A stretch of 64,000 bases of DNA from Mytilus galloprovincialis (lineage: Eukaryota; Mollusca; Bivalvia; Mytilida; Mytilidae): NCBI RefSeq assembly GCF_965363235.1, contig NC_134844.1:54122872-54186871 (forward strand), in the 5' to 3' direction. Both the position numbers and the translations under genes were made by a program. The notes under the pieces are model-generated. The model saw only the letters and a list, made by a program, of their open reading frames with translations, did not search any database and had not been told where the DNA came from. Shown here piece after piece: positions 18,089-63,567 of the stretch. Numbering within the stretch: the first letter of the stretch is position 1; the number at the start of each line of letters is the position of its first letter.

Positions 18089-18130
18089 GCGTCACTGGTT
18101 AGTCTTGTGTGGACGAAAGCACGTCTGGCG
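18089..18130 (+). ncRNA. Decayed hammerhead-ribozyme motif
   Basis: Sits in a repeat whose frame is GAGCGTCA, core, GTC-loop-GAC stem II, GAAA, then CGTCTGGCG. Stem I (CGTCA with TGGCG) and stem II (GTC with GAC) can still form, but the core reads CTGGTTA instead of CTGANGA. That loses the conserved A6 and G8 bases, so cleavage is not expected. The same defects occur at 56,329-56,371 in copy B, so the decay predates the duplication. Confidence 0.55.
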
Positions 18131-18299
18131 TATTAAATTTTAAAAGCTGGTGCCTTTTGTTAGCTAATATTCGTGTGTTTCTCTGTCCTAAATGTTCTTC
18201 TATTTATTTGTATTGTAGTCCTGTCATGTTATGTTCTCATTTTAATGTTATATTTAACATTGCCATTAAAGCGGGAGGTTTGGCATGCCATAAAACCAG

Positions 18300-18560
18300 A
18301 TTCATCCCACCCTTTTTTTTCTAAAAATACCCTGTACCAAGTCAGGAAAAAGGCCATTGTTACATTATAGTTCGTTTCTGTGTGTGTCACATTTCAATGT
18401 TGTGTTTCTGTTGTGTCGTTGTTCTCCTCTTATATTTGATGCGTTACCTTCAGTTTTAGTTTGTAGCCCAGATTGGGTTTTTTTTCCTAATCAATTTATG
18501 AGTTTCAAACAGCGGTATACTACTATTGCCTTTTTAACTTTTAACGTGCGCTCCAAATTG
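18300..18560. repeat. Interspersed repeat R1, reverse orientation
   Basis: Reverse complement of the R1 family (for example TTTTAGTTTGTAGCCC, AATCAATTTATGAGTTTC and CAGCGGTATACTACT). Its copy-B partner is at 56,540-56,790. Confidence 0.7.
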
Positions 18561-19258
18561 AAAAATGATTGGTAAACCAAAGTACATATCATTTCGATCG
18601 TTTGAAAGTATAACTGAACTGTCTCGAAACACATAAAAGTGTCTTGCTTTTTAAAAAAATAATTTTTATTATATTTGGACAAAATTAAGTAAGTAAATTG
18701 TAAACTCTCGACGGAAACTACTTTCCTCCGCTCTCAGCGGGAAATTGTTACTGCTTTCGGGTTGCAATAATCTTGATATTGGAAGAAAATCTAGCCACTA
18801 ATAAGTCAATGTTACCTGAATTGTTAATAGACACTTGATTGGGGTGTTTGATCTTAAATGATGACGTATTACTCTTTTCTTTAAGTCTGATTTGGGCAAA
18901 ACTTAACGAGAAATTAAAAAAACAACAAAACAAAATACAGCAATACAAGATCAACAAAAAAGATTTTTTTAATGAACTCTATTCTGGTCCTAAATGTTGG
19001 AGAGTATTCATTGAATGAAACTGTATTGCATTAGCAAAAACATTGATTTAGCAAAGTATAAGGTACACATGTTTATACATATATGACAACTATAACAGGA
19101 CACAGGACACAGAGAACAAATAGATAAATTAAATAATGCAGAAATAACTTATAATAATACACACATTTGTACAACGTATTAATTCATAATTTGGTTAATG
19201 ATGCACACATACCTAAGTGAGTGACATCAGCTTTTTAGAGTCTCTAGTTACGATCAAT

Positions 19259-19627
19259 TAGTTTAAACATATTTTATTTGCTGAATTAAAGCAAAATGGA
19301 TTAAACACAAGTAAATCATACTTATGAAGTCTTCTCCATAATACAATATAAAGTTACAATAATAGTATAATATAATGGACATGCATATGAAACAAACAAT
19401 TAATGCAATATAATACTAGCTTTGATAGGTGAACAAAGAGGATAGAAAGTAAAAAGAGAAAAAGAAAGTTTGAAAAGTCGTATAATTCTGTGACGATGAC
19501 TTGTGAATTGATGACAATGATGACGTTCCGTGTCAGTAATAATAACGCTCTATCAAGGCATAAGAAATCTGTTTGACCTTTTTATGAAGTTTTGAACATG
19601 TTTGAAAATTTGAATATTACGATCAAT
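19259..19627. other. 369-bp presence/absence segment flanked by TTACGATCAAT
   Basis: Copy A has TTACGATCAAT at 19,248-19,258 and again at 19,617-19,627. Copy B has it once (about 57,548-57,558) and lacks the 358 bases between. Either an insertion with an 11-bp target duplication or a deletion in B between direct repeats explains this. The segment shows no ORF and no clear terminal inverted repeat. Confidence 0.7.
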
Positions 19628-19942
19628 ATGCTATCCTTTACATTAACGATAACTATTTTATTCTCTACTTTTATAGATGTGCAAGATACACGTTAACAAC
19701 GGAGGGCATACTCATTGATAAATGAAAGAATACAGTCAACGTAAGAATTATTTTATATTTTATCAGATACCAGCTATATATGGGGTTTCTGTTCTAGAAG
19801 GATACTGCTAAACAAATATCAATTATATATTGTATTGTTGTCAAACATAATTTGATAAGTATGATGCTGTTTATAAGTCATTTGAAACAAGTGACTGGTG
19901 AAAAATAATGTTTATCCAATTCATGAACCAATGTATGTATAT

Positions 19943-20930
19943 GTTCCGGACCATATGAGTATTTGGACCATACGCGTATGGTCATGACCATATGGGTATA
20001 TACTCATATGGTCGGGGTAATTAACATTCTGTTACAGTTTACTTTTAATACTTCTTAACTCTTCATATGGTATGACCGTTCTTTAAAAAGACGCTATCAT
20101 ATAGATAATTTTATAATTATTTTATAATAAAAAGATTAGCTAAAGAAAAAATAGAAGTTTCACAAAGTTAATTTTATTTAATTGTCAAAACTATGATAAA
20201 CACATTTTATACCTTTGGTCATTACCGATGGTCATTACCGATTTGTTATTACGAGTGAATGGCACTATGAATATGTCGACTTAGAAATTAAATTTTAAAA
20301 ATTTCTTTATCAACTGTTACACAAGAAGTCACTGGAAAGTAACATAGTTTATTTAAAATGTCTTGTGAATATGGTGTATTGCAGTCATTTTTAGGAAATT
20401 TGAGATCTAGAACTTTTTAAAAACACCATAGAAATCAAAATGGCCAAAGACCTCGGTTTCACTGTATGCAGCTGCAAAAAGGCTAGCTTTTCACTCGCAA
20501 ACAAAAGGTGTACATGAAAAGGATCGTGCACAACCAAGACTTGCGAATGCAAAAAAGCCATGATACCGTGTGGAAGTACATGTCACCCTAAGCCTACATG
20601 TAAGAATGTATCTAGAGATGAAAACTAACTATGGTATCAATATTTGATTTTTACGTAGTTTTTGAATTAACAAATTGTTATGTTACCATCATAGTGTTTT
20701 TAGATAAAGTTTTTGTATTATTGAAACGTTTATAATGTAATTTGAAATAAATACCTATATGGTCCAAATACTCATATGGTCCGGCCCGTTAAAAATCAAA
20801 CGAGTATTATACTCATATGGTCCGACCATACGCGTACGGTCGGACCATACGCGTATGGTCAGACCATATGAGTATACGCATATGGTCATGACCATACGCG
20901 TATGGTCCAAATACTCATATGGTCCGGAAC
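19943..20930. mobile_element. 988-bp TIR element with ATGGTC/GACCAT palindromic subterminal repeats
   Basis: The two ends are perfect inverted repeats for 52 bases, starting GTTCCGGACCATATGAG. The ends are built from the palindrome GACCATACGCGTATGGTC and variants (five or more units at the right end, about three at the left). Copy B provides the empty site at about 57,865: GTATGTATATATCATAA is uninterrupted there. Comparison implies a target duplication of about 6 bp in a TA-rich tract (GTATAT/ATATAT), with exact length ambiguous. The interior holds a degenerate cysteine-rich coding remnant and no complete transposase, so the element is non-autonomous. Confidence 0.88.
20440..20628 (+). pseudogene. 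Cys-rich C-terminal remnant of a transposon protein
   Basis: A frame from ATG 20,440 to TAA 20,626-20,628 with one in-frame TGA at 20,515. It contains spaced cysteines: CSCKKA, then KRC, then after the stop GSCTTKTCECKKAMIPCGSTC and CHPKPTC. Cys-x-Cys-rich tails of this style occur at the C-terminus of several metazoan transposon-encoded integrase/transposase-like proteins (family knowledge; exact family not determined). Lying inside the TIR element, it is probably the leftover 3' end of the parental transposase gene. Confidence 0.5.
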
Positions 20931-22642
20931 ATATATATCATAATTTTAGTCTTCTGTGCACGATTTTCTCATTTTTTTACGCAAACATATCGTGTTATAA
21001 TCAATCGTTTTTTCTTTCTCTGTCTGTTATGTAGTGAAAATATGGCAGGTAATTAATTGTCGTGTTTTGAATCCGTAGTTTACCGATTGTCACTTTATAG
21101 TAAACAATCAACAAAGAAGCATAGATATTGAGCACGTGTATAACATGTACAATCAGATAACAGTTTTTTTCAATGACAGACCCATGCGTACTGCGATCAC
21201 CGGATTTTTACGAGAGGGTCACGCTAAGGTCACTTGCATACGAAAAATATGTCGGTGAATTGCGTCCTGGAAGCAAGCAACTAAACAAAAGTAAACATCT
21301 TCTAAATGTTGACAAATCAAACATTTTTCTCCAGAAAAAAGTATATGTATATAAGTCCTATAAGGAAAACTATCCATTTAGTTATAGAAAAAATATGCAT
21401 CATTTTTTTTTTAATTTGAGGTTTCATATGACTTGGATGAAATATTTGTACAAAATATTCAATTTATGATTTGATCTTTAAATCGATTTTTTATAATATG
21501 ATTAAGAAATAATATTTCTTGTAAGAAGTTAATAGATAATGCTAAATTATTTCAAGAAGCACCACCAGGCGACATCGCTTGATAACCGTTGTCCCTTATT
21601 TCCCCAATTTATTTTATTACTAACATTTGGACAATTTGAAGCAATTCTGTGTACTATATAATGCTATCCTTCGTTTAGTCGTCAGCAAGACTGAAATACC
21701 CAGAAAATACTTAAATGTTATACTTAACAGCTCTAAACAATTTGAGAAATCGAGTTCAAACCGATTAAATAATTTATATAAGTTTCGCTATAAAGTTTCT
21801 TAATAAATTTTTTTGGTCAGAAGTTTACCATACCGGCAAAGGTAGGTTACATATTTGATCGGTTGGTTTTGCCAGGCTAAAGGAATACTGTTTACAACGA
21901 TTTCAAATATCAAAATAGCTGACAAGCTTCATATAATTCTCGAGGGGCCAGTCTTTATACTTTCCGAATCAAGGATCGAGACTTGCACCCATGATTTGTA
22001 TACTTACATTTCTCAATATAAAATATACAGATTTTCTCTAATGAGCCGGAACGCCGAAATTGAAAAAAAGTATTCGAGTTGAGTTGACCAATGATAATCT
22101 GTTGATCGTTTTTTTACCTATGACGAAGTTATTAATTTCATTGACAACGAGCTCATGCGCCCTTTATTTATAGCGATAAATTTTTCATATCACTCTACTG
22201 TGCTGAGAAAGCAAATTATCATTCAGTAAGACCAAAGGAAAATTTTGTAAATTACCGAATAGAAGGTCTATAACACAACTGTCCACCTGACACCACAGAA
22301 AGTAGATGTTAGCTTATTTCAACGTACGACCTTCACCAATTAGCAAAATCCATACTGCATAGAAAGCTACAAAAGGCTGGAACAAGACTTTCATTCATCA
22401 ATATGAAATACAGAAATATGATATAAATGTCAATAAGACAACTATCCACCAGACACCACATAAAGTAGATGTTAGCAAAATTCAGCGTAAGACCTTCACC
22501 AATGAGAAATACGTACAGTTATCAAAAGGCTCGAACAAGACATAATGTATAACAATTCAAAACGAAATCCCGTTTGCACTTTTCTTTCCAACAATAAAAA
22601 TCATTCGAAATATATTCAGTAGTCTTTTTTTGATTTTTTAGA
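20931..22642. other. Upstream region of TRIM-like gene A
   Basis: Collinear with 57,885-59,594 upstream of gene B, with only scattered differences. The longest frame here (21,173-21,469) is broken by a frameshift in the B copy, which argues against a conserved protein. Contains an inverted relative of the 11,675 hairpin MITE (22,065-22,165) and two R2-like pieces (about 22,270-22,400 and 22,425-22,560). A splice acceptor, a T-rich tract ending TTTTTTAG, lies directly before the ATG of the TRIM gene, so an upstream untranslated exon is expected but could not be located. Confidence 0.5.
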
Positions 22643-24298
22643 ATGACAGACAAAAAATTGTGTTCTGGATGTTTACGAGATGACGAAAAAATCGAGGCTG
22701 AAGCATGGTGTAATGACTGCCTAGAAGAAGTTTGTAAGACATGCGCAAAGGTACACAGAAAATTTAATCCGCCGCATAAAGTAATACCACTTCACCAGGT
22801 CAGTAATCTTAGTTCTTCTATTCTGAAAATCAGTAAAGACTGTGATGTCCATACCGACCAAAGAACCACTCAGTTCTGTACCCAGCATGACAAGGTCATC
22901 TGTGATCTTTGTTTGTCCGACACCCATAAAAACTGTGATTCCATCATTTCCATAGATCGAGCAGCAAAAGGCGTTAAAAGTGGGACCGCCCTTGCAGATC
23001 TTAAGAGTAGAATCAATCATTTGAACGAAATGTTTCCTGAATTGTTGAAGTGTCAAACTAAAGATGAAAAAGAGTTTGATAGGCAAAGAGATAAATTCCT
23101 CCAACAGATATCTACCACCAGACAACAGATTAACAATCATCTAGATCAAATTGAAAAGGAAACCATAGACGAATTGAACAAACAGTACAAATCAACCAAA
23201 CAAAAAATGGATGAGGCAAAACATAAAACACAGAAAGGACTCGAGGCAGTAGCGACATGGATAAAAGAATTGTCATCGATAGAAAGCATCAGTAATGAAG
23301 TACTTTTATTTCAGACAATCAAAGTAATGGATAATAAAACACACATAGAAGAAACCAATATTAGCGAGCTCAATAAGAAACACAAAATAGAATTTGATCC
23401 ATTTGATACAAACGATCTTCCCGTGGTACTTAAGTCTATAGGAAAGATTTCACTTACAGAAAATCAAATGCACATACCCGCATTACAGCACAATTTACAA
23501 CAAATACAAGAACCAGTTAAGTCAATGGAAGGCGAAATACAACTAACTAATTCGTTTCTAACATCAGTTTTAGGATCAGATGTTGAAATACTAAACGGTT
23601 GTTTTGTGTCCGGAAAGAGACTTCTCTTGTCACATTACAACCCACCACACATCTCTGTATGTGGATATGATGGAAATGATGTAAACAGGATAACATTAGA
23701 ACATGATCCACGTGATGTCGCTATGATCGACGATAATCAGGCAATAGTTACTTTAAAATATACAGGATTCCAGATCTTAGATCTAACAACACTTACCTTA
23801 GGGATATATATCAAACCTGGAGGAGGAGGATACTATGCTGTGACATGTAGTAATGATCAGATATGGATGTTTGATGGAAGCTTCACTATAAGTCAGATTG
23901 ATATCAGTGGTAATATACTACGTAGTATAACAACAAATAATTTGGTGTGGGACTTTTGTATAGACAACAATGACAACATTTACTATATTACAGAAGGTAT
24001 CACGGACAATAACGTATACCGTATAATACATGACGGACAGGAGAGTATATACTTTAGTCATTCTGATCTCATTACACCTTTGGGTATCGACGTAGATGAC
24101 AAGGGAAATGTTTATGTAGGTGGACTAATGTCTGACAATATACACAGAATATCATCAGATGGAAAAGATCATCAAATCATACTGACAAAAAACGATGGAA
24201 TACATGGTCCATGGGGTTTATGCTACAACAGGAAAAAAACAAAACTCCTCGTTGTCAACGATAATAAGAAAAGTGTCGCCATGTATAATTTACCTTAG
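22643..24298 (+). CDS. TRIM-like B-box/coiled-coil/NHL-like propeller protein A (no RING)
   Basis: 551 codons in one exon, intact. Residues 7-45 form a first B-box-type zinc site (C7, C10, C23, C26, C31, C34, H45). Residues 67-98 form B-box 2 (C67-x2-H70, C79, C87-x2-C90, H95). Residues ~115-250 are a long coiled coil rich in Lys, Glu and Gln. Residues ~310-551 are a WD/NHL-like beta-propeller, with repeats such as GIDVDDKGNVYVGG and WGLCYN...LLVVND. There is no RING finger, so E3 ligase activity of its own is not expected; such bivalve proteins are annotated as TRIM2/3/45-like and are often linked to signalling or immunity by family, not by direct evidence here. ATG 22,643 was chosen because a TTTTTTAG acceptor ends just before it and the paralogue shares it. 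A polyadenylation-type flank follows. The propeller has diverged strongly from gene B. Confidence 0.93.
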   Translation: MTDKKLCSGCLRDDEKIEAEAWCNDCLEEVCKTCAKVHRKFNPPHKVIPLHQVSNLSSSILKISKDCDVHTDQRTTQFCTQHDKVICDLCLSDTHKNCDSIISIDRAAKGVKSGTALADLKSRINHLNEMFPELLKCQTKDEKEFDRQRDKFLQQISTTRQQINNHLDQIEKETIDELNKQYKSTKQKMDEAKHKTQKGLEAVATWIKELSSIESISNEVLLFQTIKVMDNKTHIEETNISELNKKHKIEFDPFDTNDLPVVLKSIGKISLTENQMHIPALQHNLQQIQEPVKSMEGEIQLTNSFLTSVLGSDVEILNGCFVSGKRLLLSHYNPPHISVCGYDGNDVNRITLEHDPRDVAMIDDNQAIVTLKYTGFQILDLTTLTLGIYIKPGGGGYYAVTCSNDQIWMFDGSFTISQIDISGNILRSITTNNLVWDFCIDNNDNIYYITEGITDNNVYRIIHDGQESIYFSHSDLITPLGIDVDDKGNVYVGGLMSDNIHRISSDGKDHQIILTKNDGIHGPWGLCYNRKKTKLLVVNDNKKSVAMYNLP

Positions 24299-25378
24299 GT
24301 TTAGTTTCAATGCAGAGGATTTTATAAGTAGGACATATAACTTATATAAAAAGGGATAATTAATTTTGATTATTATGGGAATATTTTTTATTCATTGAAA
24401 TAACAGCATTACGAAACAAAAATATGTAATGATTTCGGTGTGGTTTCTTTATCATTATACATGTTATAAGACAGTTTGATATTTACACTATTAGTTGGTC
24501 ACTTGATATTCACCATAGTGTAAACATTGGTATGGATTGATGGTTTTCTGATGGAACTTACATTGTGTAAAGTGTAAGACTACATCTTTTTATATTTAGT
24601 TGTATTGTAAGGGTTTCTTGTTGAATTTTTGTTTGCCAATTAATTATTTTAAAATTAATATGCGTATGGTTCTTTTATTTGTGAGCATTTAATGTTATAG
24701 ATTTGGATAATTATAGGTTTCATAGCCAGTCTGAATTGGATATCGTTTAATTTAATATTACAATACACGAGCCGTCCTCGAAAATGTCATTTCTATTTTT
24801 AAATAAGATAACGATGGTTTATAATAAGCGATATCCAATCCTTACGAGTTGCTAAACATATATTTGTTATCGCAACACTCTCGTTGAGTTCAAATTAAAA
24901 AAATATCTGAAACGTTGATCTAGTCTTTTACAAATACCAGTATGACGACGTAAGCCATGTTCCGCCTTCACACTCTAACATCTGACAGATCCCCCCCCAA
25001 AAGAAAAATAAACCCGACCAAACACCAACACTGACAAATGCGCTTTTAATTTTGTGTCTATACGTTTTCACATTATAAAAGTACTATAAGAATTGAAGCC
25101 GTGTCATTGCTGACCTGGCACTTTCCAAATAATACATTTAAAATGGAGATACGGTCTGTCATCAAGTAACTGTGAATACACGTTAAAAAAATCAAAACGT
25201 CATTGTCCTGCCTTAGAGGTCGGAATCAGTTTCAGGATAAGAACTTTGAATTTTTCGATTTTCTTATCCCAGGCATAGATTACCACAGCCGTATTTGGCA
25301 CACCTTTTTTTTGAATTTTGAATCCTCAGTGCTCTTAAAATTTGTACTTGTTTGGCTTTATAACTATTTTGGTATGAG
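24299..25378. other. 3' flank of TRIM-like gene A
   Basis: Nearly identical to 61,245-62,090 in copy B for the first ~850 bases: the first 110 bases after the stop differ by about one base. No second gene seen. Copy B departs near 25,150/62,095, where B carries an R2 repeat and A carries a hammerhead-bearing repeat. Confidence 0.5.
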
Positions 25379-25420
25379 CGTCACTGATGAGTCTTATGTA
25401 GACGAAACGCGAGTCTGACT
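25379..25420 (+). ncRNA. Hammerhead ribozyme motif, near-intact core
   Basis: Reads CGTCA (stem I), CTGATGA (invariant core), GTC-TTATGTA-GAC (stem II), GAAA (invariant), CGCGAGTC (very short stem III ending in a GUC cleavage triplet), then TGACT (stem I return strand, 4 pairs with CGTCA). All core bases of a type I hammerhead are present. The weak point is stem III, where a G-A mismatch leaves two pairs. Minimal stem III hammerheads are known from metazoan repeats and usually act as dimers. It lies in the dispersed repeat family that also contributes the 18,089 and 56,329 motifs. Absent from copy B at this position. Confidence 0.65.
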
Positions 25421-25471
25421 TACTAAATACGAATCCTGGTACCATTAATAACTGTATCTCTGGCGATAAAC

Positions 25472-25609
25472 ATGGCAATAAATAATACAGAAACTTTTCA
25501 ATTGACAGCAACTGCATTCTTCCTTATCATCTGTGTTTTTGTTGCTCAACCAATTTGTAAATATAACGGAACTTTAAACAACTGTCGTACAAATTGGAAG
25601 ATTACATAG
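25472..25609 (+). CDS. Candidate small secreted Cys peptide A
   Basis: A 45-codon frame: a hydrophobic segment (TATAFFLIICVFVAQ) that resembles a signal peptide core, then a short tail PICKYNGTLNNCRTNWKIT with two cysteines. Copy B has a 44-codon counterpart at 62,747 with the same tail and a different but also hydrophobic leader. The tail is identical in the two copies at DNA level, so identity alone proves little. No family recognised, and a random open frame cannot be excluded. An opposing frame covers the same region (see findings). Confidence 0.22.
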   Translation: MAINNTETFQLTATAFFLIICVFVAQPICKYNGTLNNCRTNWKIT

Positions 25610-26260
25610 GTATACAACCAGTTTTTACCCACCATAATCCGTCTTAGATTAACTTGATCACTTGCCTTTGCGAAGCACACAGAAATGAAAAAGGAAAATA
25701 AATACTTTTTTACAAAGCCATTTTCGAATAAATTTAATTTATGTATTACATGTTTAAACACTAACGGCGACAAATTAACACCTAGTGAAAAAATCATGTC
25801 ATTCCTTATTATCAAAACAAAACGCAAACATTATATATCTGATTTGTCGGATTTACAATAAGATTTTTAGATTTGACAGTACAATTTTTTTTTCAAATTT
25901 CATCTCTATTGCCAAAAACAGAATTCCATTTAAATATATGAGAAAGATGGCGCGTGTCGTCTTAATTTCTTTGTATAGATATATGTATTCAATACTCATA
26001 TATATAGCTGTTCAAAGTTTATTATTGTATTGGTGCATGGCATGCAATTTCTATATTGAATGTCATTTAGGTGCATAGGATACATAGCAATTATTTTTTA
26101 ATAACAAGACGGATGAAAATAACACGGGGAAAAATTGTAATTGTTGCAATTAAAAGATAAACATTGAATAGCTACATGCTATTTTGATTGCTTATTGACG
26201 TAACCATTTAGAGGGTTTTAGTCCTAAACTATTGTTCTTTACCTGAAAAACGACATTCTT

Positions 26261-47379: not shown

Positions 47380-47967
47380 TTAATTTGAACTTGCAGAACT
47401 TTGGTTAGCTGGACAATCCCTGACAAAATAATCCGGCTTGTCACATTGAAAACATAGATTGTGACTATTACCACGCCCCCTACCGCGACGGGGTGGACCT
47501 GGAAAGCGAGGAGGCATTCCGTAAGATTGACCTTGTCCCTGACCAAAAGAATTTCCCATAAAACCTGGCCCATGCATGTACAAATTATGAGATTGCATAT
47601 TATAATTGTCATCATCAGTGAAACCAAATGTCTTAAGTAACTTCTGTTCTTTGTCAAGTATCGCTTCCTCCTCTTTGTTGCAAACAAGTTTCAACACTAG
47701 AGCTGTAGCAAAATTTGGTCTACTTTTGTGTATATGAAATCTACTTAGTATTAAGTTTATTTTGTCCTTTAAGTCATGATTTTGCTTTCTCGCCAAATTG
47801 TCTAGTAATATCAATCTTTCATGTAAAACATCAATATCCACCTTTCCTTTTGCAGTCTCATCCTTAACGTCTCTCTTGGCCCTCTCAAATTCCGATAACT
47901 CGTCTTCAGCTTGTTTCTTCTCTAACTTTTTTTCAAGCTCTGCTATTTTCTCTTCTAATGTCTTCAT
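47380..47967 (-). CDS. Gag-like protein, second exon, of the Ngaro-like element
   Basis: 195 codons. Residues 1-40 are a charged coiled coil; the middle is helical; residues ~125-165 are Gly/Arg-rich (GQGQGQSYG, PPRRGRGRG), typical of RNA-binding gag tails; then a zinc knuckle, CFQCDKPDYFVRDC. In the CCHC consensus the third ligand is His, but here it is Tyr, so zinc binding may be lost. The ATG follows a 3' splice acceptor (TTCATTTGTATAG) immediately, and a first exon lies ~2.8 kb upstream in the same phase. It would package element RNA. Confidence 0.75.
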   Translation of the reverse strand: MKTLEEKIAELEKKLEKKQAEDELSEFERAKRDVKDETAKGKVDIDVLHERLILLDNLARKQNHDLKDKINLILSRFHIHKSRPNFATALVLKLVCNKEEEAILDKEQKLLKTFGFTDDDNYNMQSHNLYMHGPGFMGNSFGQGQGQSYGMPPRFPGPPRRGRGRGNSHNLCFQCDKPDYFVRDCPANQSSASSN

Positions 47968-51195: not shown

Positions 51196-52573
51196 TGTAC
51201 TAATCTAACTTTCAATAGATTTAGCACACAGACGCAATTTACAGTTCGAGAAAAACCAGAGTTTGTGTAATACCAAGATACAGGTATCGATATATTGTAG
51301 AGCTTTGAATGTGCTTATTCGTATACAATAATATTTAATTTTATATTAATTCGCTAATTTCAAAGACAACAGTTATACCTATAAATCCATATTCAAAGAT
51401 CTAATTCCAGTATTGAAAAGCTTTTAGAATCATTAAAGTTTATCCGGATCGTATCTAAATTTCTGGGCATCAAATGAAATATTCTGTTTTAAATAAGTTT
51501 AACAGGTACAGCCAAACTTCCAAACCAAATCTTGGTATCTATGAAGAATTAAGTAAAGGTTTCAAGTTATTAGGGTAAACGAAATCTCTTAAGGCATACT
51601 TCACCAGTAATACATAGAGTATGTTCTTATTTCCAAAACGTATATACATGTTATCAAGGAGAACATTAACAGCTTCAATCGTGGCGTCACAACTCCAGTA
51701 AGTAAATATCAAATTAACCTGTCTAAGCTTATTAGAGAAGAAGGCTTTGAAAATAAAAAATTAACACTTTATAAGTTGTATGCATCTGAAGCACTTTTTT
51801 ATTTATCTACTTCAGGAACGCTCAAAAACAGATTTTACATTATGTTTTCAATATTTGTTAGGGTAATATCCATTGAATTCCATAATACTTCCATGGTTTG
51901 ACCTATGTGACGTTCGTTACAAGATTGTAAGGACAAAGTCTTGTTTGTATGCTATATCCCATATAACTGTCATTTATGTAACTTTTCCGTTTAGTATCAA
52001 CTTATGCATGGTAAAATTTGATGCATTTATGTTTGTATGATTAAATACATTTATTAAGTTTTTATAATTAAAAGCGATTTTATAACGATCGCACAACACT
52101 AAATTGTGTTTGGTTGTTTCTACGAAATTTAAATAAGGAATCTTTTTATTTTCGGAGGAGTTAAACGAGGGAGAAGATAATTAATCTGATTTAGAATATA
52201 AAGTAGGTCAAAGGATTTAATATCGGTTTTCTGAACTATTCGTGTTAAACTACCCATGTCAATTGTATACCCACGCCGCTATTTAAAGAACACGATCGAT
52301 TCGGTAAGTTAGAAATAACTTCCTCGTCCGCCATTTTGTAATTTGGGTTGAACTACGACGGTAAGAATACATTTATTATGTTTAACTCCTTTTTAATTCA
52401 TAAAATGACTTGTTAACAATAAAATAAATATTCACGTGGTCGCAGTCTCTCACGATCGCTGCAAAACCAACAACATGTATTGAAGTATTTAGTCGTTGCT
52501 AAGGAAATATTAGTACACATTAAATATTCGATGACCTGAAGAAACAAATTTCTTCTAGTCAACACACTATTAT
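51196..52573. other. Duplicated non-coding block
   Basis: Counterpart of about 16,505-17,930 with few differences. No frame is conserved. Ends at the TAT target of the next insertion. Confidence 0.5.
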
Positions 52574-55500
52574 TAGTGCGGTGACTGAAGGCAGATTTTT
52601 TTTAATTTAATCTCCCCACCGAACACACACCTACATAATATATCATTGGAAAGAAGAAATCGTGTACTATAATAATATGCCTGTCGTCAGGACTTGATAT
52701 GGTCACATTTCTTTTAAATTGAGGTCAAAGGTCAAATGTAAAAATCTGTGAAAATTTGGGATGGTTTCAATTTTGACATTTTTTTCTATTTCTAAACTCT
52801 ACCTAAATACAAATGATACCGTTTTGGCTTTAGTAATGTTTGTTATTATACATAAACCTTAATCATTGAGATTTTTTTATCAAAAAAATCCTAAAACGAC
52901 GTTTTATTAACAAAACTTCAAAAACCAAGTTTTCAACCTATAAAATGTTTAGAGCACCTTAACCTTATGAAAAATATCAATTTCAAGTAAAAATCAAGTG
53001 TCATGCAGGACAATACTTTAAAATTATTTTTTAAACTATCATAGTGGGTGAGTTATCAATCCAAAGCCATAACCACGACAGTCAAATATGACCTCAAATT
53101 GAATTTGCGGATACTTCAGGTTTTTTTATAGACTACTCGTTGCTTTTTTTTTTTTTTCACAATTATTACTGCTACCATAGTATTATCTTTTGTTGTGTAT
53201 TTAACTTTGGTTAATATCTATTACATAGTTTTGTTTTGCAACTATATCCCCCCTTTTTTCGCTTGCAACGTACCACAAACTTCAAAAGTATTCCATATAC
53301 AAAACAAGAAGATGTGATATGATTGCAAATGAGACAACTATCCCAATGAGACCAAATGAGACATAAAACAATTATAGGTCCCGTACGGGCTTCAACAATG
53401 AGTAAAATTCATACTGCATAGTCTTCAATTCCCGATATGAATAATGTAAAACAAACAAAAAATCTAACGGCCTGATTAATGTACAAAATAAATAAGAAAG
53501 AAACAAATATAGTATATAGAAACAAACGAAAAACACTGCGTTACCGTCTCTTGACTTGAAACAGACGCATACAGATAGTGTTGGGGTTTAACTTTTTTAA
53601 GGGCACGCCTACACTCCCCTAAACACGGGGCTGGAACCGTGTGTACCAGTGCAACAAGCTTTATACCAAATCAACCGCTATCTCCATCATCTTCATTTTC
53701 ATCAACCGTCACAAGACATGTTTTAATATTTCTACACATTTCTTTCATGGCCACAGGTCTGCACATGAAATGTTCTGCTCAAAGCAAACACGTTATTTTG
53801 AGTTTTTCTTTACAAGTACAGATAAGGTGTTGTAGGAAGTCCGAAGACATATGTTCCTAAAAGAATACCAGCTTCAAACCATCCCTATCAATTCATTCAA
53901 GATTTAACAGAGATCTAAAAGGGGGCTAGGAAGGTGTGATGACATTCATATGCTTGTCTGCAAAGATGCTGGGGAAACATTATACGAGACGTACACACTA
54001 TCTTGAATTCGCTCAATGTCATGGTTGGCAACAAATTAGATAGCGTCGCACTTTACTTTAAGAAGCATAAAATCCATTTGCATTCAATGTTTCAACAAGG
54101 TGTTTTGAACCAAACTCATTGTACATTTGTAAAGTCAATTCTAAATGAAAAGGAGTAAAACAAAAACGGTTGCCTCAACAATTGCTTAGCATTTCCACAA
54201 TTTCTCTGGTGCCATTTCCTGAGAATAGTCTTGGCTGTATGCAGTTTCATTGAGTAACCATAGAATGAATTGCAATGAATACGAAGGCATTGACTGAATT
54301 AAGAAGGAAGAGACAATTCACCCGAAGTTGGGTAGTCTTCTTTAGAGTTTCGATGTCTTTTCTAAGTAAACTTGCAGCGGAATGAAATATCTGTCCGTTA
54401 TTTGTGTCTATTACAGTTGACATTGAGATTTTGAGGTCAGTGTTCAATTGACTAAAAGCTTATACGGCATCTTAAATAGTTATTTTGCTACTAAATATTA
54501 TGTTATATTTGCCTTGAACTTGTTGAAGTTGATTGACAACTGAATTTCTATAGAAATAAATGAGTTTAGACTGCATTTTACATACAGAATATTTTAAATT
54601 AGAATCAGCCGGAAAAAATTATCTATATTCATCAAGTAACGGTGCTATGAGGAATGACCATTAAATCGCTGTCAATAGCCAAAATAAAATAAGTAAAAGC
54701 AGTATCGTGTTCTGAGATATCTGCTTCCACGGGTTTGGATTTTTTTTTATCGTTTTTAGCAAATAATTTGTAATATTACCAAAATGACAGAGTGCTTGAA
54801 GTTTAAAAGATGGACGGGAAACTATTTCAACTTTAACTTTATCTGACACGCATAAAACATTTTTAATACTTGAGTATTTTTTTTATCTTTCTAAAATGTT
54901 TTGTTGCAACAAAATATACAAGCACTCCAGTTGAACAACTGCATTCTTGAACGTGTACAAATACCCGAAACTGAGGGATAACAGTCACATAATTGTATGT
55001 CGTCATTAAATATCAGACTAGAAGCTTCCTCGCTCTAAAAAGGGGGAACAAATATATTTACTTTGTAAGTTTTGTAGCATGAACGATGATAAGCTGCCTG
55101 CACAGAGTTCTTCAAATTAACAGCTTTCGCATGAAACATCTTGATGTTCACCTCATGATCATCATCCAATCTTTTATGCAATGCAGATACAAAAATTGAC
55201 TTCCTTTAACTGGTAAATTGACTCAAAATTTCAATCGAGGTTTTTTTTTTTTGGGGGGGGGGGGGGGGGGGGCATATTATGCACTGCATAAAATTTAACG
55301 ACTTTTGTCTTTTCTTTGGACTTAATAAAGCAATTTGCAAATGACTTGACATATCACGGAATATTTACTGAAACTGTCCATCAATTATTTTGATTTTACA
55401 ATAAGACTTTTCTGACAAAGTATTTGATGTTTTATAACGAAAAAACATAGAACATAAACATATACAAACAAAGTATGTGCATATATCAGTGCACTTTAAT

Positions 55501-56152
55501 TGAAAATATGTGTATATAATATCGAAAATGGTAGTTATTTCATATATCATTTGAGAGCAAATTATTGACTAATACACAAAATGTGACGGAAGGCAAGTGA
55601 TTGAGTTCCGTGTTGAAAATGAAGATTTTTACTCGATTCTTTTTCCGTTGATTTCTTAAGGTTTTTTTCATATTTTGGTCCGAAATTTTTATCACTTATA
55701 AGTTTTATTAAATACTATATGCTTAAAATATTATGGGATAATTTTTATTACTACTATGAAGAAGAAACTAAAGTTTGAGTTTGAATTTGCAATTTAAATT
55801 ACCTCAATTTTAAATAGTCTAAACTTCGCAAATTTTATAGATTAGAAGAAAATAAAATACTGAATAGAATATTTTGACATATATAAATAGCTTCAGGAAA
55901 AACTATTTCAATTAAATATAAGCAAACATACACATTTATTCATTTTAAAAAAGGGGGGTTGAAACTCTCCAATATACTACCAGTCATTAAAACGACTTTT
56001 TAGAAAAAAGTGACCGTACGAAATTCTGACGACAGGGCAAAAACTAAAGAAGACATATTTTTCTTTAAGTTAAGACCATTTTTAGCCGTGTGTTTTTTGG
56101 GGAGATTAAACTCGCGATCTAGACAACTTTTTACGATTCTGTCACCGCACTA
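52574..56152. mobile_element. 3.58-kb TIR element, TAGTGCGGTGAC ends
   Basis: Inverted ends TAGTGCGGTGAC and GTCACCGCACTA, followed inside by AATCTCCCCA-like sequence at both ends. TAT is duplicated on both sides (52,571-52,573 and 56,153-56,155), and copy A at about 17,925-17,940 (ACACTATTATGAACCT) is the empty site, which fixes the boundaries well. It contains a nested R2 repeat (about 53,295-53,640) and an 18-20-base G run near 55,251. Short minus-strand frames (54,247-54,447 and 54,661-54,849) have no recognisable domain. The autonomous family is undetermined; the 3-bp duplication is compatible with a PIF/Harbinger-like origin. Confidence 0.8.
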
Positions 56153-56328
56153 TATGATCCTACTGAGTTTTTGTTGATTTCTTGTCTTCACTAACCGTAT
56201 TTTTTTTAACCAACTATACTTCGAACTGTTTTGAAACTTTATTTTTTTAATTTATTTCGTTTTGAACTTTTGGTTCTCAGTGCTGTTCATCTTGTACTTG
56301 TTTCGGCTTTCGAACTTTTTTCATCTGA

Positions 56329-56371
56329 GCGTCACTGGTTAGTCTTGTGTGGACGAAATGCACGTCTGTTG
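56329..56371 (+). ncRNA. Decayed hammerhead-ribozyme motif, copy B
   Basis: Partner of 18,089-18,130 with the same CTGGTTA core defects. In addition the return strand of stem I is TGTTG rather than TGGCG. Not expected to cleave. Confidence 0.5.
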
Positions 56372-56539
56372 TATTAAATATTAAACCTAGTGCCTTTTGT
56401 TTGCTATTATTCGTGTGTTGCTCTGTCCTATATGTTCTTCTATTTATTTGTATTGTAGTCCTGTCATGTTATGTTGTCATTTTAATGTTACATTTAACAT
56501 TGCCATTAAAGCGGGAGGTTTGGCATGCCATAAAACCAG

Positions 56540-56790
56540 GTTCAACCCTCCCTTGTTTTTCTAAAAATGCCCTGAACCAAGTCAGGAAATTGGCCATTGT
56601 TACATTACAGTTCGTTTCTGTGTGTGTTACATTTCAATGTTGTGTTTCTGTTGTGTCGTTGTTCTCTTATATTTGATGCGTTACCTTCAGTTTTAGTTTG
56701 TAGCCCGGATTTGGTTTTTTTTCTCAATCGATTTATGAGTTTCAAACAGCGGTATACTACTGTTGCCCTTATTTACTTAAATTTCTGACC
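56540..56790. repeat. Interspersed repeat R1, reverse orientation, copy B
   Basis: Counterpart of 18,300-18,560. Confidence 0.7.
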
Positions 56791-59594
56791 AAATCCACAG
56801 AAATGTTCCCTCGTCAAAATAAATTTATAGATTCGCAAACTTTTAACGTACGCTTTCAATTGAAAAATGATTGGTTAACCAAAATACATATCATTTCGAT
56901 CGTTTGAAAGTATAACTGAACTGTCTCGAAATCTATAAAAGTTTCTTTCTGTATAAAAAATTATTTATTATATTCGGACAAAATTAAGTAAGTAAATTGT
57001 AAACCCTCGACGTAAACTACTTTCCTCCGCTTCTCAGCGGAAAATTGTTACTGCTTTCGGGTTGCAATAAGCTTGCTTTTGGACGAAACTATAGCCAGTA
57101 AATAAGTCTATAATATTGAGTCAAAGTTACCTGAATTGTTAATAGACACTTGATTGGAGTGTTTGATCTTAAATGATGACGCATTACTCTTTTCTATACG
57201 TATGATTTTGGCAAAACTTAACGAGAAATTAAAAAAAAAAAAGAACAGCAATACAAGATCAACAAAAGAGATTATTTTCATGAGCTCTATTCTGGTCCTA
57301 AATGTTGGAGAGTATTCATTGAATGAAACTGTATTGCAATAGCAAAAACATTGCTTTAGCAAAGTACAAGGTACACATGTTTATACATATATGACTACTA
57401 TAACAGACACAGAGAACAAACAGATAAATTAAATTATGCAGAAATAACTTATAATAATACACACATTTGTACAACGTATTAACTGATAATTTGGTTAATG
57501 ATGCACACATACCTAAGTGAGTGACATCAGCTTTTTAGAGTCTCTAGTTACGATCAATATGCTATCCTTTACATTAACGATAACTATCTTATTCTCTACT
57601 TTTATAGATGTGCAAGATACACGTTAACAACGGAGGGCATACTCATTGATATATGAAAGAATACAGTCAACGTAAGAATTATCTTATATTTTATCAGATA
57701 CCAGCTATATATGGGGTTTCTGTTCTAGAAGGATACTGCTAAACAAATATCAATTATATATTGTATTGTTGTCAAACATAGTTTGATAAGTATGATGCTG
57801 TTTATAAGTCATATGAAACAAGTGACTGGTGAAAAATAATGTTTATCCAATTCATGAACCAATGTATGTATATATCATAATTTTAGTCTTCTGTGCACGA
57901 TTTTCTCATTTTTTTACACAAACATATCGTGTTATAATCAATCATTTTTGTTCTCTGTCTGTTATGTAGTGAAAATATGGCAGGTAATTAATTGTCGTGT
58001 TTTGAATCCGTAGTTTACCGATTGTCACTTTATAGTAAACAATCAACAAAGAAGCATAGATATTGAGCACGTATATAACATGTACAATCAGATAACAGTT
58101 TTTTTCAATGACAGACCCATGCGTACTGCGATCACCGGATTTTTACGAGAGAGTCACGCTAAGGACACTTGCATACGAAAAATATGTTCGTGAATTGCTT
58201 CCTTGGAAGCAAGCAACTAAAAAAAAGTAAACATCTTCTAAATGTTGACAAATCAAAAAAATTTCTTCAGAAAAAAGTATATGTACTAGTATATAAGTCC
58301 TATAAGGAAAACTATCCATTTAGTTATAGAAAAAATATGCATCATTTTTTTTTTTAATTTGAGGTTTCATATGACTTGGATGAAATATTTGTACAAAATA
58401 TTCAATTTATGATTTGATCTTTAAATCGATTTTTTTATAATATGATTAAGAAATAATATTTCTTGTAAGAAGTTAATAGATAATGCTAAATTATTTCAAG
58501 AAGCACCACCAGGCGACATCGCTTGATAACCGTTGTCCCTTATTTCGCCAATTTTTTTTATTACTAATATTTGGACAATTTGAAGCAATTCTGTGTACTA
58601 TATAATGCTATCCTTCGTTTTGTCGTCAGCAAGACTGAAATACCCAGAAAATACTTAAATATTATACTTAACATGCTCCAAACAATTTGAGAAATCGAGT
58701 TCAAACCGATTAAATAATTTATATAAGTTTCGCTATAAAGTTTCTTAATAAATTTTTTTGGTCAGAAGTTTACCATACCGGCAAAGGTAGGTTACATATT
58801 TGATCGGTTGGTTTTGCCAGGCTAAAGGAATACTGTTTACAACGATTTCAAAAATCAAAATAGCTGACATGCTTCATATAATTCGTGAGGGGACAGTCTT
58901 TATACTTAATTTCCGAATCAAGGATCGAGACTTGCACCCATGATTTGTATACTTACATTTCTCAATATAAAATATACAGATTTTCTCGATTGAGCCGGAA
59001 CGCCGAAATTGAAAAAAAGTATTCGAGTTGAGTTGACCAATGATAATCTGTTGATCGTTTTTTTACCTATGACGAAGTTATAAATTTCATTGACAACGAG
59101 CACATGCGCCCTTTATTTCTAGCGATAAATTTTTCATATCACTCTACTGTGCTGAGAAAGCAAATTATCATTCAGTAAGACCAAAGGAAAATTTTGTAAA
59201 TTACCGAATAGAAGGTCTATAACACAACTGTCCACCTGACACCACAGAAAGTAGATGTTAGCTTATTTCAACGTACGACCTTCACCAATTAGCAAAATCC
59301 ATACTGCATAGAAAGCTACAAAAGGCTGGAACAAGACTTTCATTCATCAATATGAAATACAGAAATATGATATAAATGTCAATAAGACAACTGTCCACCA
59401 GACACCACATAAAGTAGATGTTAGCAAAATTCAGCGTAAGACCTTCACCAATGAGAAATACGTACAGTTATCAAAAGGCTCGAACAAGACATAATGTATA
59501 ACAATTCAAAACGAAATCCCGTTTGCACTTTTTCTTTCGAACAATAAAAATCATTCGAAATATATTCAGTAGTCTTTTTTCTTTATTTTTTAGA
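56791..59594. other. Upstream region of TRIM-like gene B
   Basis: Collinear with copy A but without the 369-bp segment and the 988-bp element, so it preserves both empty sites (about 57,558 and 57,865). The same T-rich splice acceptor (TTTATTTTTTAG) stands directly before the ATG of gene B. The frame extending 24 codons upstream of that ATG crosses this acceptor and is therefore probably not translated. Confidence 0.5.
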
Positions 59595-61244
59595 ATGACG
59601 GACAAAAAATTGTGTTCTGGATGTTTACGAGATGACGAAAAAATCGAGGCTGAAGCATGGTGTAATGACTGCTTAGAAGAAGTTTGTAAGACATGCGCAA
59701 AGGTACAAAGAAAATTTAATCCGCCACATAAAGTAATACCACTTCACCAGGTCAGTAATCTTAGTTCTTCTATTCTGAAAATCAGTAAAGACTGTGATGT
59801 CCATACCGACCAAAGGACCGTTCTGTTCTGTACCCAGCATGACAAGGTCATCTGTGATCTTTGTTTGTCCGACAACCATAAAAACTGCGAATCAATAATT
59901 TCCATAGATCGAGCAGCAAAGGGCGTTAAAAGAGGGACCGCCCTTGCAGATCTTAAGAGTAGAATTAAACACTTAAACGAAATGTTCCCTGAATTGTTGA
60001 AGTGTCAAACTAAAGATGAAAAAGAGTTTGATAGGCAAAGAGATAAATTCCTCCAACAGATTTATACCACCAGACAGCAGATCAACAATCATCTAGATCA
60101 AATTGAAAAGGAAACGGTAGACGAATTGAACAAGCAGTACAAATCAACCAAACAAAAAATGGATGAGGCAAAACATAAAACACAGAAAGGACTCGAGGCA
60201 GTAGCGACATGGATAAAAGAATTGTCATCGATAGAAAGCATCAGTAATGAAGTACTTTTGTTTCAGACAATCAAAGTGATGGATAATAAAACACACATAG
60301 AAGAAATCAATATTAGCGATCTCAATAAGAAACACAAAATAGAATTTGATCCATTTGATACAAATGATCTTCCCGTGGTACTTAAGTCTATAGGAAAGAT
60401 TTCACTTACAGAAAATCAAATGCATATACCCGCATTACAGCACAATTTACAACAAATACAAGAACCAGTTAAGTCAATGGAAGGCAAAATACAACAAACT
60501 AATTCGTTTCTAACATCAGTTTTAGGATCAGATGTTGAAATACGAAACGGTTGTTTTGTGTCCGGAAAGAGACTTCTCTTGTCACATTTCGAATCACCAC
60601 ACATCTATGTATGTGGATATGATGGAAATGACGTAAACAGGATAACATTAGAACATAATCCACATGATGTCGCTATGATCGACGATAATCAGGCAATAGT
60701 TACTTTAAGAAATAAAGGATTCCAGATCTTAGATCTAACAACACTTACCTTAGGGAGATTCATCGAACCTGAAGGAAGAGGATGCTATGCTGTGACATGT
60801 AGTAATGATCAGATATGGACGTTTGATGGAGGCAAAACTATTAGTCAGATTGATATCAGTGGTAATATACTACGTAGTATAACAACAAATAATATGATGC
60901 GGGACTTTTGTATAGACAACAATGACAACATTTACTATAATCTTACCAGCGGCAATCACGTATACCGTATAATACATGACGGACAGGAGAGTATATTCTT
61001 TAGTCATTCTGATCTCATTAGCCCTAGGGGTATCGACGTAGATGAAAAGGGTAATGTTTATGTAGGTGGATTGTTTACTAACAATATACACCGAATATCA
61101 TCTAATGGAAAGGATCATCAAATCATACTGACAGAGAACGATGGAATAAAAAGTCCATGGAGTTTATGCTACAACAATGAAACAAAACAATTTCTCGTTG
61201 TCAACGATTATACGAAAAGTGTCGCCATATATGATTTACCTTAG
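59595..61244 (+). CDS. TRIM-like B-box/coiled-coil/NHL-like propeller protein B (no RING)
   Basis: 549 codons, intact, and paralogous to 22,643-24,298. The domain layout is identical: B-box 1 with C7, C10, C23, C26, C31, C34, H45; B-box 2 around residues 67-98; coiled coil ~115-250; propeller ~310-549. All zinc ligands are kept. About 14 substitutions separate A and B in the first 330 residues, but roughly 45-50 plus a two-residue deletion in the last ~220. Variable stretches lie mostly between conserved strand motifs (DGNDVNRITLEH, FQILDLTTLTLG, AVTCSNDQIW and DISGNILRSITTNN are unchanged), which places the changes in loops or strand edges. ATG 59,595 is preferred over the in-frame ATG at 59,523 because the acceptor lies between them and the paralogue starts here. 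Confidence 0.93.
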   Translation: MTDKKLCSGCLRDDEKIEAEAWCNDCLEEVCKTCAKVQRKFNPPHKVIPLHQVSNLSSSILKISKDCDVHTDQRTVLFCTQHDKVICDLCLSDNHKNCESIISIDRAAKGVKRGTALADLKSRIKHLNEMFPELLKCQTKDEKEFDRQRDKFLQQIYTTRQQINNHLDQIEKETVDELNKQYKSTKQKMDEAKHKTQKGLEAVATWIKELSSIESISNEVLLFQTIKVMDNKTHIEEINISDLNKKHKIEFDPFDTNDLPVVLKSIGKISLTENQMHIPALQHNLQQIQEPVKSMEGKIQQTNSFLTSVLGSDVEIRNGCFVSGKRLLLSHFESPHIYVCGYDGNDVNRITLEHNPHDVAMIDDNQAIVTLRNKGFQILDLTTLTLGRFIEPEGRGCYAVTCSNDQIWTFDGGKTISQIDISGNILRSITTNNMMRDFCIDNNDNIYYNLTSGNHVYRIIHDGQESIFFSHSDLISPRGIDVDEKGNVYVGGLFTNNIHRISSNGKDHQIILTENDGIKSPWSLCYNNETKQFLVVNDYTKSVAIYDLP

Positions 61245-62104
61245 GTTTAGTTTCAATGCAGAGGATTTTATAAGTAGGACATATAACTTATATAAAAAGG
61301 GATAATTAATTTTGATTATTATGGGAATATTTTTTATACATTGAAATAACAGCATTACGAAACAAAAACATGTAATGATTTCGGTGTGGTTGCTTTATCA
61401 TTATACATGTTATAAGACAGTTTGATATTTACACTATTAGTTGGTCACTTGATATTCACCACAGTGTAAAAATTGGTATGGATTGATGGTTTTCTGATGG
61501 AACTTACATTGTATGAAGTGTAAGACTACATCTTTTTATATTTAGTTGTATTGTAAGGGTTTCTTGTTGAATTTTTTGTTTGCTAATTAATTATTTTTAA
61601 ATTAATATGCATATGGTTCTTTTATTTGTGAGCATATAATGTTATAGATTTGGATAATTATAGGTTTCATCGTCTGAATTGCATATCGTTTAATTTAATA
61701 TTACAATACACGAGCCGTCCTCGAAAAACATCATTTCTATTTTTTAATAAGATAACGATAGTTTATAATAAGCGATATCCAATCCTTACGAGTTACTAAA
61801 CATATTTTTGTTATCGCAATACTCTCTTTGAGTTCAAATAAAAAAAAGTCGTGAAACGTTGATCTAGTCTTTTACAGATACCAGTATGACGATGTAAGTC
61901 ATGTTCCGCCATCCCACTCTAACATCTGATAAATCCCCCCAAAAGAGAAATAAACCCGACCAAACACCCACACTGACAAATGCGCTTTTAATTTTGTGTC
62001 TATACGCTTTCACATTATAAATATACTACAAAAATTGAAGCCGTGTCATAGCTGACCTGGCACTTTCCAAATTTAATACATTTAAAATGGAGATAAGTTT
62101 GTTG
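61245..62104. other. 3' flank of TRIM-like gene B
   Basis: Nearly identical to 24,299-25,150 of copy A. No additional gene. Confidence 0.5.
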
Positions 62105-62380
62105 CCTGTCCGAAGTCAGGAGCCTGTAAATCAGTGGTTGTTGTTTGTTTATGTGTTACATATTTGTTTTTCAATATTTTATGTACATGAATAAGGACGT
62201 TAGTTTTCTCGTTTGAATTGTTTTACATTGTCATATACGGGCCTATTATTATATAGCTGACTATACGGTATGGGCTTTGCTCATTGTTAAAGGCCGTACG
62301 GAGATCTATTATTAGTTTTAAAATTTCTGTGTCATTTTGGTCTATTGTGGACAAATTTTCTTTTTTTTTTCTTGTTGGTT
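62105..62380. repeat. Interspersed repeat R2, reverse orientation, private to copy B
   Basis: Contains GAAGTCAGGAGCCTGTAA, GGGCTTTGCTCATTGTTAAA, GGCCGTACGGAGATCTA and TTTCTGTGTCATTTTGGTCT, the reverse complement of R2. Copy A has no R2 here. The sequence 62,381-62,746 is a further private segment without a gene. Confidence 0.7.
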
Positions 62381-62746
62381 TTTTTTTTATTGTTGTTACG
62401 GTTTAATCCGTTCATTTGCTAGTCTGCATAAGCAAATTACACAATCACTATCGAAAGGATTTTTTTTATAGTGATAGGGTTCCCTATTGGAAATAAGTGG
62501 ATAAGCAAATGAAAGCGAGGCGTTCCAGTACATTCCCCACTCTTTTTTACCTGGTTCTTTTGTTTTTCTATACTTTTTATACTATTTCACTTTACAAATA
62601 TCCTATTAGAATTGTAGGCCTCTCATCGCTTAAATGGCAATTTATAACCTTGACTTATTTCCTACAAGTGGCGTTAGTTTTTAATCTGTACATTTGCTAG
62701 CTCTGTATAAGCAAATTACACAAATAACTATAAGAATACTTTCAAA

Positions 62747-62881
62747 ATGAAAACTAAAATTCATTTGTTCTCTATTTTGACAAATTGCATACTTCCTATC
62801 ATCTCTGTTTTTGTTGCTCAACCAATTTGTAAATATAACGGAACTTTAAACAACTGTCGTACAAATTGGAAGATTACATAG
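62747..62881 (+). CDS. Candidate small secreted Cys peptide B
   Basis: 44 codons: MKTKIHLFS, then a hydrophobic run (ILTNCILPIISVFVAQ), then the tail PICKYNGTLNNCRTNWKIT, identical to the copy-A candidate. The leader differs by compensating small indels that keep the frame. It has a Lys-containing N-terminus and a hydrophobic core typical of signal peptides. No family recognised; it could be a chance frame or one exon of a longer gene. Confidence 0.25.
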   Translation: MKTKIHLFSILTNCILPIISVFVAQPICKYNGTLNNCRTNWKIT

Positions 62882-63567
62882 GTATACAACCAGTTTTTAC
62901 CCACCATAATCCGTCTGAGATTAACTTGATCACTTGCCTTTGCGAAGCACACAGAAATGAAAAAGGAAAATAAATACTTTTTGACAAAGCCATTTTCGAA
63001 TAAATTTAATTTATGTATAACATGTTTAAATACTAACGGCGACAAGCTTCGTGTGTGTTTTTCATCTTTTTTTACGTTATCATATTAACACCTAGTAAAA
63101 AATTCATGTCATTTCTTATTATCAAAAAACAAACCACAAACATTATATCTGATTTGTCCGAATTACAATAAGATTTTTAGATTTGACAGTACAATTTTTT
63201 TTCTCAAATTTCATCTCTATTGCCAAAAAACAGAATTTCATTTAAATATATGAGAAAGATGGCGCGTGCCATCTTAACTTTGTATAGATATATGTATTCA
63301 ATATTCATATATATAGCTGTTCAAAGTTTATTATTGTATTGGTGCATGACATGCAATTTCTATATTGAATGTCATTTAGGTGCATAGGATACATAGCATT
63401 ATTTAATAACAAGACAGATGAAAATAACACGGGGAAATATTGTAATTGTTGCAATTAAAAGATAAATATTGAAGTAAGCTACATGCTATTTTGATTGCTT
63501 ATTGACGTAACCATTTAGAGGGTTTTAGTCCTAAACTATTGTTCTTTAACTGAAAAACGACATTCTT

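Follow-up and report, generated by a model that had tools for sequence, protein, structure and literature searches.

The closest described relatives of the two genes analyzed here, A and B, are the TRIM-NHL and TRIM56-like proteins (subfamily C of Marin 2012, PMC3503706, in its available text), with which they share a B-box, a presumed coiled coil, and a probable C-terminal NHL-like propeller, but A and B have no detected RING, are single-exon genes in tandem arrays, and diversify strongly on the predicted upper face of the propeller. Human TRIM NHL domains are described as variable at the top opening in the accessible part of PMC9634614, and poly I:C treatment of Mytilus haemocytes elicits a response of a transcript annotated as TRIM56, although from the excerpt of PMC7773633 it is not linkable to the A/B array. 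A different recognition domain characterizes the fish finTRIM, btr, and trim35/hltr genes, TRIM-type multigene families in which, as here, loops of the C-terminal domain are positively selected (available sections of PMC3137616): theirs is B30.2 (PRY/SPRY), whereas A and B carry an NHL-like propeller and no SPRY match.

The fungal HET-D/HET-E NWD genes, as far as the accessible text of PMC1805685 goes, resemble the A/B array in being a multigene family with exchange between members and in concentrating selection, blade by blade, on codons of the D-A and B-C loops at a single propeller face (in A and B these loops are assigned from sequence). The diversified WD40 positions in HET-D/E are 7 and 9, in the D-A loop, and 25 and 27, in the B-C turn. 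HET-D/HET-E carry their WD40 repeats, near-identical and exchanged, behind a NACHT domain, while in A and B divergent NHL-like blades follow B-boxes, in an animal.

Results

Two TRIM-Like Paralogs in an Expanded Family

The window, a stretch of 64,000 nucleotides from Mytilus galloprovincialis, contains genes A and B within the two copies of a segmental duplication (Table 1), and the gene coordinates given in an earlier, sequence-only reading of this DNA proved exact for both. Gene A encodes a protein with a B-box, a presumed coiled coil, and a probable NHL-like propeller, and no RING was detected. Gene B and L013, a relative on contig C14, each have two stretches matching the Pfam B-box, the best one in L013 being aa 17–50; scores for PF00643 exceed the cut-off of 24.1 in P0001 (26 bits), P0002 (32.9), and L013 (37.9). 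The NHL family PF01436 reaches 20.1 bits in P0001 against a cut-off of 20 and a borderline 18.8 in P0002, and other propeller Pfam matches are likewise borderline. Stretches that span the presumed coiled coil weakly match the chains of TRIM28 (aa 7–222, E 3e-4) and TRIM25 (aa 19–192, E 0.003), and a profile built from ten family propellers weakly matches the NHL chains of TRIM3 (E 1.6e-5) and TRIM2 (E 4.5e-4). The Pizza propellers and PknD are designed or bacterial proteins and have neither B-box nor coiled coil. Designed Pizza propellers and the NHL domain of PknD are the best matches of the A/B propeller among solved structures (PDB), and the ten-propeller profile matches Pizza6 and PknD NHL among the best 60 of 92 matches.

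Table 1. Features of the A/B locus, in positions of the window
Feature	Positions	Strand	Description
Gene A (L001)	59595..61244	+	Single-exon CDS, 549 aa; ATG at 59595, TAG ends 61244
Gene B (L002)	22643..24298	+	Tandem paralog of gene A, 551 aa, single-exon, architecture as gene A
B-box zinc finger of gene A	59787..59885	+	aa 65–97, Pfam
Propeller of gene A	60504..61241	+	aa 304–549; six-bladed, NHL-like, blades assigned from repeat pattern
Propeller of gene B	23552..24295	+	NHL-like
Diversifying codons, C7 array	60543..61214	+	Posterior >0.9: aa 317, 357, 414, 434, 436, 451, 452, 478, 493, 494, 520, 540; all assigned to D-A or B-C loops
Segmental duplication, copy 1	51196..63567	+	Carries gene A; separate blocks 89–98% identical
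Segmental duplication, copy 2	16509..26260	+	Carries gene B; blocks 89–98% identical to copy 1

P0001 and P0002 have no Pfam match to RING, SPRY, NACHT, or WD40 up to E 1. A RING regular expression, which would miss a RING split across exons or, for array copies, one lying farther off, matched nowhere on either strand of the window nor in L001–L006, L013, or L055; the same expression recovered the RINGs of two relatives on contig C10, L067 and L068, that of L067 being found by Pfam as well. Because no RING was found in the window, we describe A and B as TRIM-like rather than as complete TRIM proteins. In L067 and L068 (C10:26.32–26.34 Mb) the RING stands ahead of the B-boxes and propeller, which is possibly the ancestral full TRIM architecture.

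A protein search of the 1.385-Gb assembly (331 contigs) yielded at least 83 matches, from the 79 candidates scored among 2517, with some genes giving several, and a second, overlapping search for relatives yielded at least 90, with some genes split into several; the family includes several tandem arrays. One of them, on contig C7 (54.145–54.389 Mb, plus strand), holds eight copies across 244 kb, of which six have full-length frames without stops and two contain stops. A second large clade, located on a different chromosome (C14), is 33–38% identical to the C7 array, and a third (C5:87.5–87.8 Mb) shows 23–25% identity to L001 and L013. Codon analyses used the six intact C7 copies (L007 and L008/L022 were excluded for internal stops), eight of the 12 near full-length C14 copies (L010, L017, L020, and L023 were excluded for the same reason), and five C5 copies, among which the L053 frame was trimmed to the family start codon; L019 (at most 45% identity to the others) and partial fragments were also excluded. 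In all 12 pairs drawn from several subfamilies the propeller had a higher dN/dS than the N-terminal part, but the propeller value exceeded 1 in just three (one from C7, two from C14). Propellers are thus fast family-wide, and omega above 1 comes from site models only, in C7, C14, and C5 only.

Divergence of Genes A and B

The core of the segmental duplication, 4.2 kb including the gene, is 95% identical between copies. The replacement changes counted in the sequence-only reading are borne out by codon alignment, which counts 14 replaced residues in the part preceding codon 331 and 46 in the remainder, as is the net difference of two residues in the indel region; nine codons after 331 differ synonymously. 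The family alignment positions the indel differently from the pairwise one and gives 13 replacement and 21 silent codons over aa 1–303 and 50 and 7 over aa 304–549. The same pattern holds across the three pairs of L001–L003. Over aa 1–303 they differ silently at 21, 19, and 18 codons and by replacement at 13, 19, and 16; over aa 304–549 the silent counts are 7, 6, and 8, and the replacement counts 50, 39, and 41. Within codons 282–415 these pairs have 1, 5, and 4 silent vs. 21, 26, and 20 replacement differences, and those codons of this range that encode one residue in all six copies show no silent difference between them at all.

Estimates by NG86 are dN 0.019 and dS 0.116 for codons 1–330 and dN 0.114 and dS 0.113 for codons 331–552. 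The pairwise propeller dN/dS is therefore about 1, ranging from 1.0 to 1.4 with boundary and alignment (1.37 and 1.15), and taken alone is not clearly above 1. The propeller dS is probably inflated, since many changed codons carry several changes.

The 3′ flank had been put at about one difference in 110 bases. This holds near the stop codon (2/145 in the first bin) but not beyond it, where divergence rises to about 5% (41/848 over the first six bins); in the seventh bin A and B differ at 66/120 positions, and the alignment is poor from there on. In the last ~700 columns before the ATG they differ at 8/682 (1.2%).

Diversifying Selection on the Propeller

We fitted codon site models with a self-written GY94 program (not PAML) using F3x4 frequencies and models M0, M1a, M2a, M7, M8, and M8a, with branch lengths kept in proportion from M0 and naive empirical Bayes posteriors. 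For the C7 propellers (n = 6), M2a improves on M1a by 2dlnL 79.3 (P = 6e-18) and assigns 8.1% of codons to a class with omega 10.2. Codons before 300 give 2dlnL 2.9 (P = 0.24) in the same comparison; M8a/M8 gives P = 0.04 for the N-terminal half, and another boundary agrees, so this half is not wholly free of signal in C7. The C14 propellers (n = 8) yield 2dlnL 93.3 (P = 5e-21; 9.2% of codons at omega 6.1) and the C5 propellers (n = 5) 21.9 (P = 2e-5), with an N-terminal gain of 0 in both clades. The average pairwise ratio near 1 and the site models thus bear differently on the expectation that propeller dN/dS exceeds 1: the average does not, whereas the models require a site class, about 8% of codons, with omega far above it.

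The signal persists under changes of model, alignment, and tree. With two- and three-base substitutions allowed, 2dlnL is 50.3 for C7 (P = 1e-11), 56.9 for C14 (P = 4e-13), and 8.4 for C5 (P = 0.015); with columns near gaps removed it is 45.0, 96.8, and 21.2, respectively, and with the N-terminal tree imposed on the propeller 95.5, 94.6, and 16.5. Null data were simulated for the C7 array, one of the three clades. Without recombination (n = 60) the largest 2dlnL was 7.68, and with tree labels permuted per 42 or 15 codons (n = 60 each) the maxima were 9.22 and 11.29; refitting M2a to all 180 data sets from three starting points instead of one left the maxima unchanged.

Sites chosen in one clade were also tested in another. 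Among 249 shared columns, 12 sites in C7 and 15 in C14 have posterior >0.9, and seven are common to both (P = 4e-7 Fisher's exact test). As a fixed partition, the C14-chosen sites have omega 4.36 in C7 (P = 4e-11 against 1), and 5.22 in L001–L003 alone (P = 4e-5), while the C7-chosen sites have omega 6.26 in C14 (P = 3e-19). The union of the two site lists has omega 1.62 in C5 (P = 0.019), a clade that agrees with C7 and C14 more weakly. The replacement excess noted in the propeller is therefore real: site models and simulations put it beyond chance, as does an independent clade. Strong diversifying selection acts on some 8–9% of the propeller codons in C7 and, independently, in C14, while the B-box/coiled-coil half is mainly conserved. 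We have very little doubt about the selection signal; its evidence base is paralogs within one genome.

Predicted Position of the Selected Codons on One Propeller Face

All 12 selected C7 sites map to the 65 of 246 propeller residues that belong to D-A or B-C loops (hypergeometric P = 5e-8), and among 246 rotations the observed register alone places them so well. Of the 15 C14 sites, 12 fall in these loops and the remaining three one residue away; for C5 (posterior >0.8) the count is 9/12, the others lying at 1, 5, and 7 residues. The bottom loops contain no selected site of C7, C14, or C5. Taken whole, the top loops have omega 1.93 in C7 (P = 1e-5), 1.63 in C14 (P = 1e-4), and 1.34 in C5 (P = 0.051), and the bottom loops 0.41, 0.44, and 0.30; in L001–L003 alone the bottom-loop value is 0.60 and does not differ from 1 (P = 0.28). 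The six blades and their loops were delimited from the sequence repeat pattern after the variable sites were known, so that loop placement is not blind, whereas the cross-clade test is independent of these boundaries. In propellers beyond the WD40 type, too, the D-A and B-C loops generally form the upper face. For WD40 propellers this is stated in the accessible text of PMC1805685. Diversifying selection on the propeller, as the sequence-only reading had proposed, is thus strongly supported by site models and cross-clade sites, and sequence mapping would place the selected codons in or adjoining the D-A and B-C loops, together one face.

Compared with the remaining propeller, 20 slots in the 14 C7 and C14 genes are enriched in Trp (12.9-fold), Met (3.8-fold), and Arg (3.2-fold), and further in Glu (2.2-fold), Phe (2.0-fold), and Tyr (1.7-fold). 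Across 19 genes, net slot charge varies between −4 and +4, and no two of the 19 slot strings are the same.

A Candidate Recognition Surface

Selective divergence at a few sites on one face is what would be expected if each copy had a different, changing target. We favor, as the probable explanation, a tandem array evolving by birth and death, to which A and B belong and whose RING-less TRIM-like proteins recognize different evolving ligands with their variable propeller face. Under this explanation duplication would supply new copies, conversion would keep the common half alike, and selection would diversify the recognition face; a hypervariable face rich in Trp, Met, Arg, Glu, Phe, and Tyr would bind a paralog-specific ligand, while the conserved coiled coil and B-boxes would dimerize and relay a common output, perhaps via recruited RING-bearing relatives. 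Each paralog may present a hypervariable binding surface to a different evolving ligand, most likely pathogen proteins within the cell. Invertebrates lack adaptive immunity of the vertebrate type, and we hold with moderate confidence that the array has a role in immune recognition. To our knowledge, no ligand has been reported for RING-less TRIM-like families of the A/B kind.

We give even odds to the idea that the germline encodes a large repertoire of NHL-propeller receptors acting inside the cell, one face of each forming a hypervariable binding site of roughly 20 slots. If it does, NHL propellers would join the B30.2 domain of vertebrate TRIMs as another recognition platform of the TRIM type and would be the animal equivalent of the fungal HET propellers. 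The defined set of selected positions on one predicted face, recurring in two independent arrays, makes an "expanded family" amenable to testing as a recognition surface. The correspondence of loops suggests that NHL propellers in animals and WD40 propellers in fungi may have arrived independently at the same two loops per blade. A search of the open-licence PMC literature, mostly titles and the beginnings of abstracts and hence no proof of absence, turned up no paper describing an NHL propeller as positively selected.

Alternative Ligands and Drivers

Alternatively, the top face could bind RNA in the manner of Brat and LIN-41 and have diversified toward different viral or transposon RNAs, a reading that we think unlikely. 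According to the available text of PMC5908797, the upper face of the NHL propeller is where LIN-41 and Brat bind RNA. The spacing of LIN-41 contact residues also alternates similarly to that of the selected sites, in a comparison of residue numbers without alignment. Against this, the range of net slot charge leaves no constant basic patch, and Trp and other aromatics are enriched alongside Arg, a combination more typical of protein interfaces. Variable proteins would accordingly be more plausible ligands of these slots than an invariant phosphate backbone. The Brat surface is itself described as mixed hydrophobic and basic (PMC5908797, same available text), so the RNA-binding reading, though unlikely, keeps some weight.

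Self- or allorecognition, or reproductive or intragenomic conflict, might have driven the diversification in place of pathogens, as in fungal HET-D/HET-E; this seems to us improbable. We know of no animal with intracellular allorecognition propellers. In its favor, the codons under selection in the WD40 propellers of HET-D/E occupy the same pair of loops in each blade (accessible text of PMC1805685). Selection between paralogs could also reflect functional divergence and not an arms race.

Gene Conversion, Relaxed Constraint, and Imported Sequence

Conversion has probably left traces in the C7 array. In Sawyer-type run tests (15 pairs, each tested twice, P values uncorrected), L002 and L005 agree without interruption at 23 polymorphic silent-codon sites within codons 2–101 (P = 0.0125) and share a run of 54 sites when all sites are used (0/2,000 permutations). 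Further runs join L002 and L003 over codons 267–485 (P = 0.006) and L001 and L004 over codons 58–161 (P = 0.064), and all-site runs join L002 and L004 over codons 175–208 (P = 0.0005) and L001 and L004 over codons 181–208 (P = 0.0035). Conversion probably homogenizes parts of the common, N-terminal half. The L004 copy (C7:54361758–54366413) has flanks that hardly align to those of the other copies (against L001, K is ~0.24 on the 5′ side and 0.63, hardly alignable, on the 3′ side), while its CDS is close to theirs; it is possibly a conversion partner, or else belongs to a different duplication unit.

The sequence-only reading had offered, as its other explanation, that conversion homogenized the whole duplicated unit save the propeller, which then merely looks fast. 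The L002–L005 silent-site run, the diverged flanks and similar CDS of L004, and the 1.2% divergence of the A/B 5′ flank are what such a process could leave behind. Conversion-like tracts exist, yet silent differences in the propeller are not raised: fourfold sites differ between A and B at 2/68 in the propeller against 5/89 before it, and the L001–L003 pairs have 6–8 silent codon differences over aa 304–549 against 18–21 over aa 1–303, the opposite of a several-fold higher silent divergence of the propeller. With so few silent differences the propeller lacks the appearance of an older stretch that escaped conversion. Moreover, the site models within the propeller weigh silent against replacement changes of one and the same region, and the recombinant null simulations fail to yield the signal. 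As the cause of the propeller's divergence, such conversion is very improbable.

Relaxed constraint on surface loops, or pseudogenization, might be suspected from the stops in two of eight C7 copies and in four of 12 near full-length C14 copies. Omega is, however, significantly above 1 at sites picked in the other clade and only 0.30–0.44 in the bottom loops of the three full clades, and six C7 copies keep full-length frames; we give this account scarcely any credence. That one propeller was simply imported from a more distant family member, as had also been considered, is practically negligible, because a genome search with the gene A propeller DNA detected no outside donor among its 14 matches (the best eight are the array copies, and the other six reach at most 70% over short stretches) and because the signal is distributed across all six C7 copies.

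Other Elements in the Window

Between genes A and B, on the minus strand, lies a probable retroelement of the tyrosine-recombinase type (42587–47967), which we take to be DIRS/Ngaro-like. It matches the reverse transcriptase family PF00078 and the ALOG domain PF04852, with a GDSL hydrolase match below the cut-off; a CCHC motif (47380–47967) and a recombinase-like ORF (42587–43162) were recognized by eye, neither with such a Pfam match. Also on the minus strand, an ORF at 3146–3553 resembles by eye the GIY-YIG endonuclease of Penelope-like elements, with no Pfam match at 0.01, and an ORF at 3884–4375 carries a Myb/SANT-like DNA-binding domain (PF13837) and is possibly transposon-derived. A minisatellite-like tandem array with several frames open occupies 28430–28939. 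The sequence at 62103–62351 is an interspersed repeat, with full or partial matches at 77–88% identity in at least 37 places beyond four array matches.
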